Shown here in pieces: positions 4,610-44,525 of a stretch of DNA of 64,000 bases. Origin of the DNA: Phaffia rhodozyma. Its lineage: Eukaryota > Basidiomycota > Tremellomycetes > Cystofilobasidiales > Mrakiaceae. Numbering within the stretch: position 1 is the first letter of the stretch; each line of letters opens with the position of its first letter. Position numbers and translations under genes: made by a program. The notes beneath the pieces are model-generated. The model was given only the letters and a program-made list of their open reading frames with translations. It searched no databases and was not told where the DNA came from. Location of the stretch: the NCBI GenBank assembly GCA_014706385.1, contig JACGZH010000011.1, forward strand, positions 1 to 64,000, written 5' to 3'.

Positions 4610-5475
4610 TCTGCTAGCTCGGAACGTCGTAAGCTTTGCTTATCGACTGCATAAGGGCTAGTCATGTTTTCGAACAGCGGCAGTCTGGCTCAATGGGGCT
4701 CGCAGTGGTCACTCTCTCTAGAGTCTTGAAGGTGCCTTGAGAGAATGGAACAAAAGCTCCGAAAACAACGGTCGTGGACGAAGAATGATACGGAAGTGTC
4801 GACAGCTCTCTGTGGTGAGTGTTTCTCATACTCACGCTAATTGTGCAGACGGCATTGCTCACCTCGATTTCTTTCTTTGGATCCTTCTCCGTTCAAAACT
4901 GCCAGTCTTGATGATCTCCGCACTGCTGTCAATTTGTATTCTCGGTCTTACTTATGGCTCTCCACGTCCTTCACTGCCCGACGCCGGAGATGTCAACGCT
5001 GGGGTGCGCACATCAGCCGTGAAAAAGCGTTTCACAAGCTGGCACTTCGTCTGCCACAATGACATCCACGTATATTTGTGGACTTCGGAGATGGCGCCTT
5101 CTCGTAGTCTTCTCGTAACCATGCTCATGGTCCTGTAAACACGCAGATTACCACGCTGAGAGTCTCCTCGCCGCTCAAGGTTCGTCAAGACCGGAAGTTC
5201 CAGACATCAAGGATGTGCTCCGAGTGCCATGGTGGGTTCTTGGGGAGGAGCAAAACGTGGGCGTCGGAAAAGTGTTCGAAGCATCTGTCTAGTAAGTCTG
5301 ATGTGTTGAAAATTTGTTGGATTTCTCAAGATAGTGCCTCGAGTACTGATCAATTTCCCTGTATTTTCTGTGCTTTATGCTTTCTCTCAGACGTGGTGGA
5401 ACTAGGTTGTCAATGCGTCCCGCAACATGCTCCACCTGGCTCTGCGCCAGGTGGAGCACAACATGAGATCTTGGG
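4610..5475 (+). pseudogene. Degenerate Fanzor (TnpB-like) nuclease fragment
   Basis: This is a decayed partial copy of the Fanzor gene at 38731-41376, matching its part from the RuvC-I motif to the C-terminus. The correspondence includes intron positions: a gtgagt donor at about 4816 and a final intron between 5291 and 5391. All three catalytic positions are lost. The RuvC-I GLDPGRR region is garbled by deletions, the glutamate of REYRTS reads lysine (RKF), and NRDVNAS reads N-stop-V-V-N-A-S. In-frame stops occur at 5060-5062 and 5103-5105. The acceptor AG of the first of these introns has become GG, and one extra base shifts the zinc-finger end. The CxxC pair (CSEC) survives. The 5' half of the gene and the conserved 3' non-coding block are not recognisable. 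It is dead and older than the intact copy. Confidence 0.85.
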
Positions 5476-35169: not shown

Positions 35170-35571
35170 ACCTCAATATATCATGTAGATTTAAGAAACA
35201 ATATATCGGCTTAAAACGATATCTGAAAAAGAAAGTCTGGTTCAGAGAGGCTAGGTATCAAAAAGAAAATAGCAAGCTGGCGCTACTCAGTAATGTGGGC
35301 AGATTATACCCATGACCCGTGAGATTTTGGATGTTTGTGGTTTGAGGTCTCAGATCACCCAGGCCCAAGAGGACCACGTATGGAGCATCATTGATTAGGA
35401 TTGCTCTCAGGCATCCAAAGCCACAATGAGTGTTCACGTATTTTAAAGCGTTTACCCAGAATAGCCTGTTCCCTTCTTCTCTACCACAGTCAATGAAAAT
35501 CGATAAACAACCAATGTATTAGTTGCTAAGTTACGATTAACTCTCTTTCTAAGTCAAACAAATGTTAGGAG
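35170..35571. promoter_or_regulatory. Promoter region of the Zn2Cys6 gene, carrying a Fanzor-end remnant
   Basis: This non-coding gap is occupied in its middle by the solo copy of the Fanzor 3' block (35308-35412). No other gene is seen. Confidence 0.5.
35308..35412 (+). ncRNA. Solo Fanzor 3'-end block, candidate omega-RNA scaffold remnant
   Basis: This is homologous to the block directly after the stop codon of the intact Fanzor. ACCCATGACCC is identical in both (35308-35318 and 41377-41387). Positions 35358-35395 match 41423-41459 at 31 of 38 alignment columns, counted by eye, and the stretch between also aligns with small gaps. No nuclease coding sequence remains beside it, only a trace of the final codons (GGCAGA). 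It is in the same orientation as the intact element, about 6 kb away, and ends about 160 bp before the Zn2Cys6 ATG. In TnpB/Fanzor systems the guide is the sequence just past this end. Whether it is transcribed is unknown. Confidence 0.55.
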
Positions 35572-37936: not shown

Positions 37937-38730
37937 TTCTTGTAAAACGACCTTGTAAAACACTCATGACTCAAAAACCTAAGCCATATAGCTAGCCTGT
38001 ATAGTATGCTGTAAACCATCCCATACTCTTTCGAGAGCTTGAGCTCTTGGACATATCCCAATAGCCAGCCAACTAAACAAACAAAAGCTGATTTTGTATC
38101 AATCACTACTCCTGTACTTATATCCACCTCTATCTACAACATCCGGATGAATAAAGCTAGCGAATCCGACTCAAGGAAAAAAAAAATTAGCAAGCCAAAC
38201 ATCTGGGTATGTGCTGAACTTAGCATATACATATCAGAGATTGAGAACAGCCGCAAGACCATCGATCGATTCGACTCGACTACTTTGATGTTTACATTAC
38301 ATGCCTGGCATGGAGCGCTTAGATGAATACTGCTGAGATCAGCTGCAATTGGCCCGGTTGAACACTTCTTCTCCATCTCTTCGTTTGTCTGTTGTTTTGT
38401 CTGATGATCACCTTGGCTGCTCATGACTGTCGCTATGTCTCTTTGTCTCTTTGTCTCTTTATATGTTCATGTCTTTGTCTGTGGACGGTAGAGCGTTCAC
38501 CAGGTCGTTCATCATGACCGACAGCCAGTCGAACTGATCAAAGGGAAAACCGGTCAAAGGGGATTTCCTGCAAACAAGCAGACATCAATCCCAACAGCTT
38601 ATAAGACACAACGGACTCGAGATGATCAGAGCGCTCTTTCGTATCAGAACATCTCTTCATATCAGAACACTTCTCCATACCAGAACACTCACTAGCTGCT
38701 TTGAGGAGTGCCGCTCCTCTTGTGTTCGAC
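37937..38730. other. Intergenic between Zn2Cys6 gene and Fanzor; left end of element somewhere within
   Basis: No gene is recognised. TCTCTTTG-type repeats occur at about 38436-38460 and three direct repeats just before the Fanzor start. The left boundary of the Fanzor element must lie here or nearer the gene, but no terminal inverted repeat or target duplication is visible. Confidence 0.45.
38642..38695 (+). repeat. Three tandem 18 bp direct repeats upstream of Fanzor
   Basis: Three adjacent imperfect copies lie at 38642-38659, 38660-38677 and 38678-38695, each beginning TAT/TAC-CAGAACA. They end 35 bp before the Fanzor ATG. They could be transcription-factor sites or a sub-terminal repeat of the transposon. 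Confidence 0.7.
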
Positions 38731-41376
38731 ATGAAGCGCAAGAGGACGGCTCAGGCCTCGGCAAAGTCTTCTCTCGCAGCTAACACTACTACTACCACTA
38801 CTACTGCCACGTGCTCAGCCTGCGGTCAGGTTGGGCACTCAAGGCGATCTAACCACCTCTGCCCGTTTTACATCCCTCGTCAGGGAGTAGAGATCCGCGC
38901 CAAGTCAGCGGTCCCTATGGTGTCACGGACAGTGAAGATAGGCTTTGGTCCTTTACCCGCCTTTGGGCCACTGGCTGGCCCGATCGAGTCGGCCGTTGCC
39001 CGGCTAGGAAAGATAACATTCGACGCATCGCGACTACTGAATATCCACATGTCGAAAGTCTGCGCGGATGGAGGGGAGATACCGAATCTTCCCTCCATGA
39101 TGCGGCTCTACTTTCAGGCTGTTGGTTTCAACACGCGTGGAGGAAATCTGCACCAAGGAGCGCCAACACTGAACGAAGGGATCAACGACCTCCGCGACGC
39201 CTCTTTCCCTGCTGAGCACCAGTTCACAGACTCCAAGTGAGTGATCTCTTTGGCGATGACAGTAATGCAGCTGGCTGTGAACAGGGACTGACTGATTTGC
39301 TGTTGTCATAGATACATGGGCAAAATGATCAGCGCCAAAGCTCAGTCGTGGACCACGGCCTGCCAGAACCATGTCGTCCTGAACATGCCGCGCCGGGCTT
39401 CTCGGCTCATCTCTTGGTGGCTGGAGACACACGTCGGAGAAGCGATCCAGAGCCGGATCAGTATCAGCCAGGTAAGGAAGACGGGTCATCTGAGGAGGTA
39501 TCTGAAGAAAGGCTGCAGCAACGACTGACCTATCTGACATATCTGATCCATCTGTTCGTCCTCAGCGCACTGCCCTCTCCCATCAGCTCTGGGAGCAACT
39601 GTCCCCTCCCTCTCCTCGAGGAGGAGAAGAGGGAGAAGAAAGACAAGAGGGTGAAGAGGATAGAGAGGAGGAGCCACCACAAGCTGCCACATCCCTGGTG
39701 GCCCCGCCCTGGCTACTCAAACTCCTCCTTCCTGACCAGCGCACGGTGATGGAGGCTCATCTCCGAGGCTTGTTCGACTTCCTCACAGATCACATCTTCG
39801 GAGGTCTGCCTCTGACGGGTGAGGCCATCAAGAACTCGTGGAGGTCCTATCTGCGCCCTCTGTACCGGATACTGACCATCTTCGAGGAACATGGCCCCCA
39901 AGATGCGGCTGCAAGACGGACCACTCGTCGCCGGGGGCATGGTCTGCGCCTGTTCTCGCTTCTACCGCTCTCGTCCCACCGGTCATCCTACGTCTTTGTA
40001 GACACCATGGCTCTCTACGACCTTTGGTCCCAGCTCAAGTTGGAGGACGCGGATATGGGATATATGCGCGGGGTGACTGAGGAGTCCTTCCGGGCTGACT
40101 CTGACACTTGGTGGAAACGGTCGTTCCATATATCCAAAGTCAAGACCAGAACGCGACAGTTCGCCATGTCGCTCAGTACAGACGGCATCGGCGTGTCTGC
40201 CGGAAGGCTGAGACCCATATCGTCTTCATCTGGCATCGACGACTACGGGTGGAGATGGGAGGGCGAAGGCAAGGACCGTCACCGAGCAGAGTATGTTCCG
40301 TGGGGTGTGCGGCCAGAGGACGAGGTCGTGGGGCTCGACCCAGGCCGTCGGACGCTGCTCTCGACGACCGCCGGAGGGCTCGACATGTCTCTGGACAACG
40401 GCGGTCTGGCTGAGCGGGGCACGCAGTGGTCGCTCTCTCTCAAGTCATGGAGGCACCTTGCAGGGATGGACCGAGACGCTCGGAAACAGCAGCTGTGGAT
40501 GAAGAACCATGCGGAAGTGCCAAACACTCTCCGTGGTGAGTGTCTCTCACGCTTATACTCACACTCACACTCACACTCACACTCACGTTCAAGCTAACTG
40601 TGCAAACAGCATTACTGACCTTGCAAACTGCCTTGCCCACCTCGGTGTCTTGCTTTGGCTTCTTTCCTCGGTGTCTTGCTTTGGCTTCTTTCCTCGGTGT
40701 CTTTCTCCAGATCTTCCTTCGTTCAGATCTGCCAGTCTTGACGGCCTCCGCGCTGCTCTCGTCTCGCACTCTCAGTCCTACTCCTGGCTCGCGACCTTCT
40801 TCGCTGCTCGACGCTGGAGACGTCTTCGCTGGGGCGCACACATCAGCCGCGATCAAGCGTACCACAAGGTGGCGCTCCGTCTGTCGGCAGGACGTCCACG
40901 CACCTTTCTGGCCTTCGGCGATGGTGCCTTCTCGTCATCTTCTCGTGGGCATGCTTCTGGTCCTGTGAAGACGATGTATGCCAAGCTGAGGGCCTCTCCG
41001 TTGCTCTATGTTCGCAAAGTGCGGGAGTATCGGACGTCGAGGGTGTGCTCGAAGTGCCATGGCGAGTTCTCAGGAAGGAATAAAGTGTGGGCGATCAAAG
41101 AGTGTCGAAGCGTCTGTCGAGTAAGTGCTGTGTGTCTATTACATATCTTATGATGATGTCTCGATGACTGATCGTTCTCTGTGCTTGCTCATTGTTTTCT
41201 CTGCTTTCTCTTCTCTCTCTCAGACCTGGTGGAACAGAGATGTCAATGCGTCGCGCAACATGCTGCACCTAGCCCTTCATCAGGAAGAGAACGAAGGGGC
41301 AAGAATGCTGGTGTTTGATACTGCTGCTGCTAGTGGGGCTGAGGCTGAGGCTGAGGCTGAGGCTGGCAGAGACTAA
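38731..41376 (+). CDS. Fanzor RNA-guided DNA endonuclease (eukaryotic TnpB homologue)
   Basis: Five exons (38731-39236, 39312-39471, 39566-40535, 40711-41120, 41224-41376) splice in phase to 732 residues. It begins with a basic KRKR (2-5, possible nuclear signal), a Thr run and a zinc-knuckle-like C28xxC31-x4-H36-x7-C44. An acidic linker (about 235-260) follows. The RuvC-I aspartate is D480 in GLDPGRR. AFGDGAF is a Fanzor hallmark. E651 in REYRTSRVC occupies the alternative catalytic glutamate position reported for Fanzors, D688 in WNRDVNASRN is the RuvC-III aspartate, and the zinc ribbon is C658xxC661...C677xxxC681. It ends with an Ala-Glu repeat. Introns and the long N-terminus suggest the Fanzor1 type. 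It would cut DNA matched by a guide RNA from its own 3' end (41377 onward). No disabling change is seen. Confidence 0.9.
40556..40587 (+). repeat. CACTCA hexamer repeat in Fanzor intron 3
   Basis: About five consecutive CACTCA hexamers lie just after the intron 3 donor of the Fanzor gene. The dead copy at 4610-5475 has only one or two units at the same place, so the array grew after the copies diverged. Confidence 0.75.
40641..40710 (+). repeat. 26 bp tandem duplication ending at a splice acceptor
   Basis: The 26-mer beginning CTCGGTGTCTTGC occurs at 40641-40666 and again, identical, at 40667-40692. A partial third unit (40693-40710) ends in the CTCCAG acceptor of exon 4. The pyrimidine-rich unit lengthens the acceptor tract. 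The dead copy has a single unit. Confidence 0.8.
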
Positions 41377-41475
41377 ACCCATGACCCATGGGGACTTGAT
41401 GGTATGTGATCTGAGGGCACACCCCAGTCCAAAAGGGCCATGTATTGACCACCATTGATCGAGATCAACCTCACC
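41377..41475 (+). ncRNA. Candidate Fanzor guide (omega) RNA scaffold at element 3' end
   Basis: This conserved non-coding block starts at the base after the Fanzor stop. It contains two short perfect hairpins: CCCATG-ACC-CATGGG (41378-41392) and TTGATC-GA-GATCAA (41455-41468). A diverged copy exists at 35308-35412 without any coding sequence, so this part evolves as a unit. In characterised Fanzor and TnpB systems the scaffold RNA comes from this position, with the guide immediately downstream (here from about 41475). Transcription is not shown by sequence alone. Confidence 0.55.
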
Positions 41476-41736
41476 AAGCGTAAGGCTTATAACATATACA
41501 TGTTGTAGGGTCTGCCATGTCTTCATGATATTTGTTCAGAATATATAAGCCGAGTGGCTGTAAGTGTTCGGTCGAGGCTGCTGCTCACACCAAACATAAC
41601 ACTTTTCGGATAATACGCCCGATGATTTGCAAATTCTGAAATTCCATCTTTTCGACTTGGATTTTTCCCAATCTTTCATACTTCTTCCTTCCATCAACAC
41701 ACCATCATCCACCCATCCATCAATCACTGTCCAATA
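41476..41736. promoter_or_regulatory. Promoter region of NADP-isocitrate dehydrogenase
   Basis: This gap between the Fanzor 3' end and the IDH start has pyrimidine-rich stretches and CCATCCATCAATC-like repeats near the ATG. If the element end is correct, the Fanzor sits about 260 bp from this housekeeping start codon. Confidence 0.4.
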
Positions 41737-44525
41737 ATGTTTGCTTCTTCATCCAGACGAGCTCTCCTTTCTGCTTCTAGAATCTCTACTCCCGCCGCTA
41801 GGTCTGCCGTTCACCAATTTCGCCCACAAGTTCTCTCCCGAATGGATCTTAGCCGCGGTAAGAGTGGTTATCTGCACCCATGCTTATGATATTTACTGTA
41901 TTGAACCTTACTCATGATAATTCTCATCAATTCTGGTCGCCTTAGCTTATGCCACTGCTCTAAAGAAAATTCAGGTTGCCAATCCCGTCCGTAGAAATCT
42001 TCATCTGACAAGTTGTCTTCTGCGACCTAAGCCTGATCATGCTTGTCTTCGCTCGACTAAACGTAGGTTGTCGAGCTGGACGGAGATGAGATGACTCGAA
42101 TTATTTGGAAGAAGATCCGAGAGGAGGTAAACAGCTCTTTCCTCTCATCAGACACCCAAACAGGCAAGCGAGGTCAAGGTCTAACTTTGGACCTTCCCAT
42201 CGCTAGCTCATCCTTCCTTACTTGGAGCTCGACATTAAGTACTATGACTTGGGGTAAGCCTAATTACAGGGTTTCAAGTTGAAGTTGATTTTATTCAAAC
42301 TTATGCGTAAATTGTTTTAATGCGCCCGCTCTAGAATGGAGAACCGAGATGCTACTGATGACCAAGTGACCATTGACTCGGCTGAGGCTATCAAGAAGGT
42401 AAGCATCCCGTTTTGTCTGGTCCGGCCATCAATCAAGCACATCCATCTGATAATCATACTCTTTACATTTGCGTCCAGTACAACGTTGGAATCAAGGTCA
42501 GCGACGAAATCGATTCAGTAGAGCCAGAGTGCAAGTCAATGATACTCAACATTACCGATTTGTTATTTTATTAGTGCGCTACCATCACTCCCGACGAAGC
42601 CCGTGTCGAAGGTAAATCAAATTATCTTGAACATCTGAATCATCATTTCGCGGCTGACTTGATTCTTGCGAAATACTTGGGTCGGTTTAGAATTCAAGCT
42701 GAAGCAGATGTGGCGATCTCCCAACGGAACTGTGCGTATCCTTTTTTGAAACCAGAACCTTTCTACAACCTGCTTCTCGTCAGTTCAGTCGTTCATCTCT
42801 ATCTATGGCTGTATAAATATGTTCTGTTAGATTCGAAACATCCTTGACGGAACTGTTTTCCGAGAGCCGATCATCATTCCCTCTATTCCTAAGCCTGTGC
42901 CCGGTTGGACGAAGCCTATTGTCATCGGTCGACACGCCTTTGGAGATCAGTACAGATCGACTGACTATGTGGCCAAGGGTCCCGGGAAGCTAGAGATGGT
43001 TTACACGCCTGAGGCAGGAGGAGAGAAGGTCGTCATGGAAGTCTACAACTTCAAGGGGCCAGGAGTTGCTCGTACGTTTAGTTCTTATCAACTTGACTGC
43101 GTTTGTTCATAATACAGAATACGGTAGTCTGACACCAATATGCGTGCTGTGTCACCTCCGCACAGTGGCCATGTACAACACTGATGAATCAATCATCGGA
43201 TTTGCCCACTCATCTTTCAAGATGGCCTTGTCCAAGAAAATGCCTCTGGTGAGTGTCCTTGTTACTTGTAATGCTGTCTTTATTTCATGTACTGTTTTTG
43301 CGCTAAACACCTGTCTATCATGCTGCTCAATATATAGTACTTGAGCACGAAGAAGTAAGGACCCTATCTCTCAAGATTCAACACACTGAAATAACGGCTA
43401 AACGACGTTTCATTTCATTCAGCACAATTCTCAAGAAGTACGACGGAAGGTTTAAGGACATCTTCCAGGGTATCTACGAGAAGTATGTGCTCCACATTCT
43501 GAATACTAACTTTGAGGTTATAGCTGAATCTCAATCAAACTTCGTCATTCTCAGAACTTATCAGAAGGACTTTGAGGCTGCTGGTCTCTGGTATGAGCAT
43601 CGATTGATTGGTGAGTGTCTTGCATGTATCACTCTAAAATAAAAATGATTTCTGACCATTTGTCTGCTTCGTGTTGGCCAAACTTCCAGACGATATGGTT
43701 GCTCAGGCCATCAAGGGAGACGGAGGTTTCGTTTGGGCCTGCAAAAATTACGAGTCAGTCCCGGACGACGCTGTGTCTCAAAGGTGATAATGGACTCAAT
43801 TTGTCTGTATTTGTCTTTTCAGCGGAGATGTGCAAAGCGATATCTTGGGTCAAGGTTTCGGATCCTTGGGAATGATGACTTCAGAGTTGGTCACTCCTGA
43901 TGGTTTGGTCATGGAGGCTGAGGCTGCACACGGTTTGTTTAGAAGTTAACCTTCCCGCGGTTGACACAGTCTCAACTAAAAATTTCGATGTCTGTCGGGT
44001 TTTCTGGAAAAAATCATAACAACATAAAAACAGGAACGGTCACCCGGCACTACCGAGAGCATCAGAAGGGAAAGGAGACCTCAACCAACCCGGTCGCCTC
44101 CATCTTTGCTTGGACCCGAGGTCTCGCTTTCCGAGCAAAGCTTGACAAGAATGAGAACCTTGCAGCGTTCTGCAAGAGTTTGGAGGAGGCCTGTGTAGAG
44201 AGTATCCAGCAAGACGGAATCATGACCAAGGACTTGGCCTTGGCCATTCATGGAAAGAAGTATGCACACTCGCTCGTTCATGGCTTAGCTACTCAATATT
44301 CACTGTTCTTCGGAACCTTGTTTGTCTTGTTCTAGGATGACTCGAGAGAACTGGGTTACCACCACTGTTTACCTCGACCATGTGAACGTGAGTGTGTTTT
44401 CTTGTGACAGGCTGTGCCTGGACGCGTTGTGTTCTGACTCTACGGCCCTTTCCTCTACACCTCCTCATTTGCTGTGTCCTTATCAGGATCTCCTCCAGAA
44501 GAAACTTTCGACTCGACTCAATTAG
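41737..44525 (+). CDS. IDP1: NADP-dependent isocitrate dehydrogenase, mitochondrial
   Basis: The gene has many short exons. The N-terminus is an Arg/Ser/Ala-rich mitochondrial presequence ([19 protein letters not shown]). The mature part starts [21 protein letters not shown]. Typical NADP-IDH motifs follow: [32 protein letters not shown], substrate-binding [62 protein letters not shown] and [16 protein letters not shown]. It decarboxylates isocitrate to 2-oxoglutarate with production of NADPH. A second in-frame Met (MDLSR, about residue 36, before the first intron) could give a form lacking most of the presequence. No peroxisomal tail is present (ends STRLN). Confidence 0.95.

Follow-up and report, generated by a model that had tools for sequence, protein, structure and literature searches.

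An apparently intact, probably transposon-borne Fanzor-family gene in a fungal nuclear genome, and its broken relatives

The start of contig 3 of a fungal nuclear genome carries what is, to judge from its sequence, very probably an intact, transposon-borne gene for an RNA-guided DNA endonuclease of the Fanzor family, probably a Fanzor1. The window analysed here is the first 64,000 nucleotides of that contig, and the genome searched with it amounts to 19,772,070 bases in 15 contigs. Its many short introns give the host the look of a fungus, and genome size, gene structure and the reverse-transcriptase arrays at chromosome ends suggest that it may be a tremellomycete such as Cryptococcus or Kwoniella. 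With the window copy undamaged and every other near-complete one examined found broken, it is a sensible candidate for an activity test; the protein, at 732 residues, is small enough for testing, and the broken relatives provide a natural set showing which residues were kept. Fanzors are common in fungi and few have been tested at the bench, the number being four orthologues in the available parts of one study (PMC10432273). In the literature searched, from which most subscription papers are absent, none joined Fanzor with basidiomycete, Basidiomycota or Tremell, and Cryptococcus appeared with it in one paper that, to judge from its listing, is unrelated, which is no proof of novelty. The initial annotation had already read an intact Fanzor-family gene at this place, a reading now backed by profile, motif and gene-structure tests; added here are the family of broken copies, the past selection on one copy and a one-ended pattern among the family's ends.

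The gene, its protein and its neighbours

The five exons of the gene (38731-41379; Table 1) join in frame to encode 732 residues, in line with the earlier claim that they keep phase. All four introns run from GT to AG, and the retention of any single one brings in an early stop.

Table 1. Features of the window copy and the element around it, in window coordinates
Feature	Position	Strand	Remarks
Exon 1, with ATG, basic start MKRKR and zinc-knuckle-like C28/C31/H36/C44	38731..39236	+	
Exon 2	39312..39471	+	Splice sites compared among copies
Exon 3, with RuvC-I GLDPGRR	39566..40535	+	D480 codon 40337-40339
Exon 4, with E651 and C658/C661/C677/C681	40711..41120	+	E651 codon 41025-41027
Exon 5 and stop, with NRD including D688	41224..41379	+	D688 codon 41239-41241; coding to 41376, TAA 41377-41379
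Mobile element, approximate extent	38090..41487	+	Both bounds set by homology to other copies; true termini not proven
3' UTR and family-common 3' end, candidate guide-RNA scaffold, imperfect hairpin	41380..41487	+	Structure without covariation support
Flank, putative guide supply if the Fanzor/TnpB rule holds	41488..41520	+	Inferred

A profile search placed PF07282 (Cas12f1-like TNB, a zinc ribbon) above its Pfam cut-off at residues 646-695 (34.7 bits against 26.3, E 2e-8), and the NCBIfam TnpB-family profile NF040570 gave a weak match to that C-terminal stretch (E 6.6e-5; 22.3 bits, cut-off 100). The residues on which that annotation had relied, namely D480 in GLDPGRR, E651 in REYRTS, D688 in NRDVNAS and the cysteines C658, C661, C677 and C681, all lie at the positions given for them. 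They also fit the Fanzor motif set out in the available parts of Bao and Jurka (PMC3627910), D-X(125,275)-[TS][TS]XX-[C4 zinc finger]-X(5,50)-RD, which is found here as D480, then T654 S655 R V C658, the four cysteines, RTWWN, and R687 D688; the motif was worded loosely, with the second cysteine pair as CxxC or CxxxC, and 14 aspartate positions fit it, D480 among them. Two further signs are described in the available parts of Yoon et al. (PMC10711439), where a DPG in RuvC1 is near exclusive to Fanzors and the alternative glutamate, a RuvC2 glutamate six residues ahead of the zinc finger, is likewise a Fanzor sign. Both are present, the first as D480 P481 G482 and the second as E651, followed by YRTSRV and then C658. 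The same source gives DPGx(120,160)Ex6CxxCx(12,18)CxxCx(4,8)D, a pattern for finding TnpB and no definition of a Fanzor; in its strict form this fails because the spacing from DPG to E is 168 and the second cysteine pair is CxxxC, and it matches once spacing up to 200 and CxxxC are allowed. For the zinc knuckle proposed at the N-terminus, the residues are there, with a weak profile match (zf-CCHC_6, 16 bits; cut-off 22).

The protein resembles TnpB of IS200/IS605 and IS607 in its C-terminal zinc ribbon and RuvC signature, and differs in the alternative place of its glutamate, the DPG in RuvC1, a spliced gene, its length and its home in a eukaryotic nuclear genome. None of the solved Fanzors was matched by sequence, the sole match being a weak one to the zinc ribbon of TnpB-like L79 (E 0.63), nor was any found with a profile built from three sequences. 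The Fanzor1 label is therefore taken from size, introns and divergence, no sequence relation to the solved Fanzors having been seen outside the zinc ribbon. A structure predicted for exon 3 alone was unusable (mean pLDDT 39.6) and was dropped before any fold search, and of 180 stretches fitting two peptide patterns for viral relatives, none was confirmed.

On its 3' side, the gene is followed by an exon of NADP-isocitrate dehydrogenase, which bears out the housekeeping surroundings described earlier; the likely start codon of that gene, placed by eye, is at 41737, about 250 bases beyond the end of the element. The 5' neighbour is a probable fungal transcription factor gene, its Fungal_trans match being weak and below cut-off (E 0.03). 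The span first annotated, 38731..41475, holds the gene but proved slightly short at its 3' limit, as homology between copies runs to about 41487, and the element also extends left: genome-wide repeats of the element segment start at about 38090 and stop at about 41487. Just outside, at 37981-38009, a short stretch resembles, by eye, the tail that follows the 3' end in the copy at locus L044, and is perhaps a remnant of another insertion beside the window element.

Broken relatives and selection on the window copy

The gene belongs to a dispersed family, of which at least 29 loci have the C-terminal part (residues 580-680) and at least 14 the N-terminal part, the window included (loci were counted by hand from the match table, and the N-terminal part was taken as present where a match began no later than residue 130). 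Searching the genome with the protein gave at least 100 exon-level matches with 61 of 125 candidates scored, and nucleotide matches number at least 40 for the 3' end of the window copy and at least 39 for its 5' part, again with the window included and with some of the 5' matches being two pieces of one place. Twenty family stretches with long flanks, plus two smaller additions, were compared. The window itself holds two other members: a solo piece of the family 3' end at 35300-35423, about 68-73% identical to several copies, and at 4622-5278 a decayed fragment, with stops, of a more distant relative. The latter equals in its match scores a copy found at C14:1178573-1179229 (locus L051), pointing to a duplication from one chromosome end to another.

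Eight copies, the window copy among them, could be aligned over the whole gene. While the window copy has no premature stop, the other seven, with coding identities to it of 88-92%, each carry three to eight in register, and in five of the seven (L035 to L039) indels also shift the frame within exon 1 or exon 3. Of their 28 introns, 24 keep GT..AG and four have lost it. L040 and L047, more distant copies that cover most of the gene, have stops too. RIP-type mutation as the origin of the damage was rejected, the C-to-T rates by context showing no CpA excess. At the level of single residues, the RuvC positions are retained in 11/14 (D480), 15/22 (E651) and 18/24 (D688) of the other copies that cover them, and the zinc-ribbon cysteines in 19/22 (C658), 20/22 (C661), 20/22 (C677) and 16/19 (C681); among the copies in these counts are L051 and the 4622-5278 fragment, whose readings are the same. 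The knuckle residues are retained in 9/9 (C28), 8/10 (C31), 8/10 (H36) and 9/10 (C44).

The changes private to the window copy show past purifying selection. Set against the majority of the other seven, they comprise 72 synonymous and 59 nonsynonymous changes where the noncoding spectrum predicts 38 and 89 (P 8e-10), and five stops would be expected where none is present, the chance of none being 0.005 under the neutral spectrum (one change that alone would make a stop sits in a codon changed more than once). These figures bear directly on the possibility that we are looking at the same gene in an inactive state, either an old insertion that has by luck acquired no stop so far or one that has lost its function through missense change. 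In its overall divergence, the window copy does look like its dead relatives: it differs from the majority of the other copies by 6.4% in the CDS and 6.0% in introns, within the 5.4-8.3% and 5.5-14.4% of the broken copies, and its terminal branch of 0.071 falls in their range of 0.043-0.103. The improbable absence of stops, the synonymous excess and the retention of every motif residue nevertheless speak against inactivity, which we consider improbable. The tree itself is nearly a star with end branches of 0.043-0.103, which suggests an old burst.

Selection could instead have kept the gene for a function in the host at this one place, and no longer as the gene of a transposon. Such domestication would fit a copy that is the sole unbroken one of the eight aligned, that has the lowest omega-like value among them (0.35, against 0.44-0.63 in the broken copies) and whose element ends 0.25 kb ahead of a housekeeping gene. 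The pooled difference in the omega-like value is modest (Fisher P 0.04), and the broken copies show a synonymous excess of their own, being less constrained than the window copy and not free of constraint, as would be expected if they were active before dying. The window copy still bears the 5' and 3' ends of the mobile family, which counts against domestication, and this seems to us a shade less credible even than inactivity. An intact gene still carried by its transposon stays the preferred reading.

The 3' end as a candidate guide-RNA scaffold

In the Fanzor systems tested by others, the 3'-terminal flank of the RNA is the guide, according to the available parts of that work (PMC10432273). 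If the window copy follows suit, its protein would bind RNA made from the element's own 3' end, with a guide taken from the DNA just past 41487. A matching empty allele could then be cut and repaired from the filled chromosome, so that the element would be kept or copied. As the Fanzor gene fills most of the element, the latter presumably has no transposase of its own, and a helper in trans would be required for it to move elsewhere. Within the flank, the 20-mer at 41494-41513 has a single place in the genome, no second one appearing with as many as three mismatches allowed.

The 3' UTR could plausibly hold a guide-RNA scaffold. In a hairpin predicted from 26 of 27 family 3' ends (the solo end in L041 was left out), 94.0% of cells are paired, against 31.4-50.3% in slid controls, a sliding control that favours a structure derived from the consensus in any case. 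Covariation in the hairpin did not rise above shuffles, its five measures being reached by 46 to 198 of 500; among them, the number of pairs changed on both sides was reached by 97 and the number of such cells by 46. The 3' UTR of the window copy alone folds no better than shuffles (z -0.24), and a search with Rfam at gathering thresholds gave no match in the window. The idea of the 3' UTR as an unusually conserved stretch was rejected, its mean pairwise identity in the eight close copies being 0.815 against 0.892 for exon 3 and 0.900 for exon 4.

Ends of the family and routes of spread

Across the family, left ends vary from the 5' region to mid-gene, while the right end is common, in a few variants. 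The surplus of C-terminal over N-terminal loci reflects the same 5' truncation with an intact 3' end, and detection bias may add to it, exon 4 being well conserved. This one-ended pattern points to a helper of either the rolling-circle (Helitron2-like) or the reverse-transcription kind.

Exact repeats of 12, 13 and 17 bp flank three of 24 copies, and each length was reached by none of 23 swapped right flanks; two of the three lie where homology stops, and the third 218 bases beyond that point. The other 21 copies, including that in the window, have no exact flank repeat. In a test of 18 copies that permitted mismatches, L038 (score 10) and L045 (score 9) likewise beat all 17 swapped flanks; their matches being short, and placed 245 bases beyond the boundary and 30 within it, respectively, they were left uncounted. 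L053 and L054 share no longer string between their flanks than 7 nt each, and so have none. No pair of terminal inverted repeats common to the family was seen, and a candidate beside L042 was set aside as part of another repeat. Short hairpin-like sequences were noted by eye at right ends; the left ends are too ill-defined to compare, and that of the window copy is not sharp.

The search for a helper named neither kind. PF14214, used for the RepHel protein of Helitrons, gave no match, in a search whose control was blind (0/14 genomes), and, in a comparison by eye, not one of the 42 listed RVT_1 places came within 4 kb of any of the 40 listed 3'-end places, both numbers being lower bounds. Reverse-transcriptase elements do stand near an end of contigs 2, 8, 9, 10, 12, 13 and 14, in arrays on 2, 10 and 14, and many of those at chromosome ends have open frames of about 900-1190 amino acids.

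The closest parallel comes from Chlamydomonas reinhardtii, whose Fanzor1 elements CRe-1 to CRe-3 are assigned to non-autonomous Helitron2, with one-ended transposition, in the available parts of Bao and Jurka 2013 (PMC3627910). As described there, they likewise have a gene split by introns (into five exons in CRe-1), copies that are often cut short on the 5' side but whole at the 3' end, and internal deletions. Their target duplications vary in length, at about 7-19 bp with some longer, compared with flank repeats of 12-17 bp here; insertions with complete 5' ends are reported in those parts to have no duplications found. The present family differs in that such repeats are seen in only 3/24 copies and, by eye, not after a T-rich tetranucleotide, that its host is a fungus, that its copies are old and that no Helitron with matching ends was found, with the blind control noted above. 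Likeness to the Helitron2 Fanzor1 pattern is accordingly shown, and membership of Helitron2 is not, no Helitron having been found in the search with the blind control, nor a LINE next to a listed 3' end. After Chlamydomonas, the family gives a second instance of the one-ended Fanzor pattern, and it offers a way into what moves such elements.

A rival to a rolling-circle transposon is target-primed reverse transcription of unspliced RNA with a LINE-type helper. Variable 5' truncation with a common 3' end, the exact flank repeats and the chromosome-end arrays of reverse transcriptase would all suit it. Against it stand the retention of all four introns in the seven other copies aligned over the gene, the distance of every listed RVT_1 place from the listed 3' ends, and the publication of the same pattern for Helitron2 Fanzor1 elements (PMC3627910, in its available parts); on balance, it appears rather unlikely. 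A far bolder scheme, to which we give very little credence, would have a one-ended fungal Fanzor element spread through copies that are unspliced, truncated at the 5' side and flanked by long target duplications, with priming perhaps by the RNA-guided cut of the Fanzor itself. Selection would then hold its lone unbroken copy in place upstream of isocitrate dehydrogenase, the rest of the family having died. Our preferred account remains that of an intact Fanzor gene borne by a transposon.

A fungal comparison is afforded by the element SPu-1, whose protein we take to be SpuFz1 of Spizellomyces punctatus. The window gene, if its probable label holds, shares with SPu-1/SpuFz1 the standing of a fungal Fanzor1. 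RNA-guided cutting of DNA by SpuFz1 has been shown, in the available parts of PMC10432273, and SPu-1 is described in those of PMC3627910 as having one uninterrupted frame, 33-bp inverted repeats, putative TA duplications and 9/17 full-length copies intact. Here, by contrast, there are introns, no inverted repeats common to the family were seen and one of eight aligned copies is intact.

Smaller members accompany the long ones. At no fewer than eight places, a 5' piece is paired with a 3' piece within 0.7 kb (by eye; three of these were read), as in small non-autonomous derivatives. L054 and the second element in L035 (L035:2235-2990) have the same deletion point at two places; what both retain, by eye, is the 5' region and the stretch from the end of intron 4 through exon 5 to the 3' end, and L058 may be a third such derivative. 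A tRNA-like sequence was noticed by eye at L037:3050-3140, just upstream of a broken Fanzor copy. On contig 15, the left ends at L034:6500-6842 and C15:550127-550467 (L053, L055) agree at 99% of 343 bases, yet the 3' ends of the two elements belong to different types, which would fit a recent exchange of ends.
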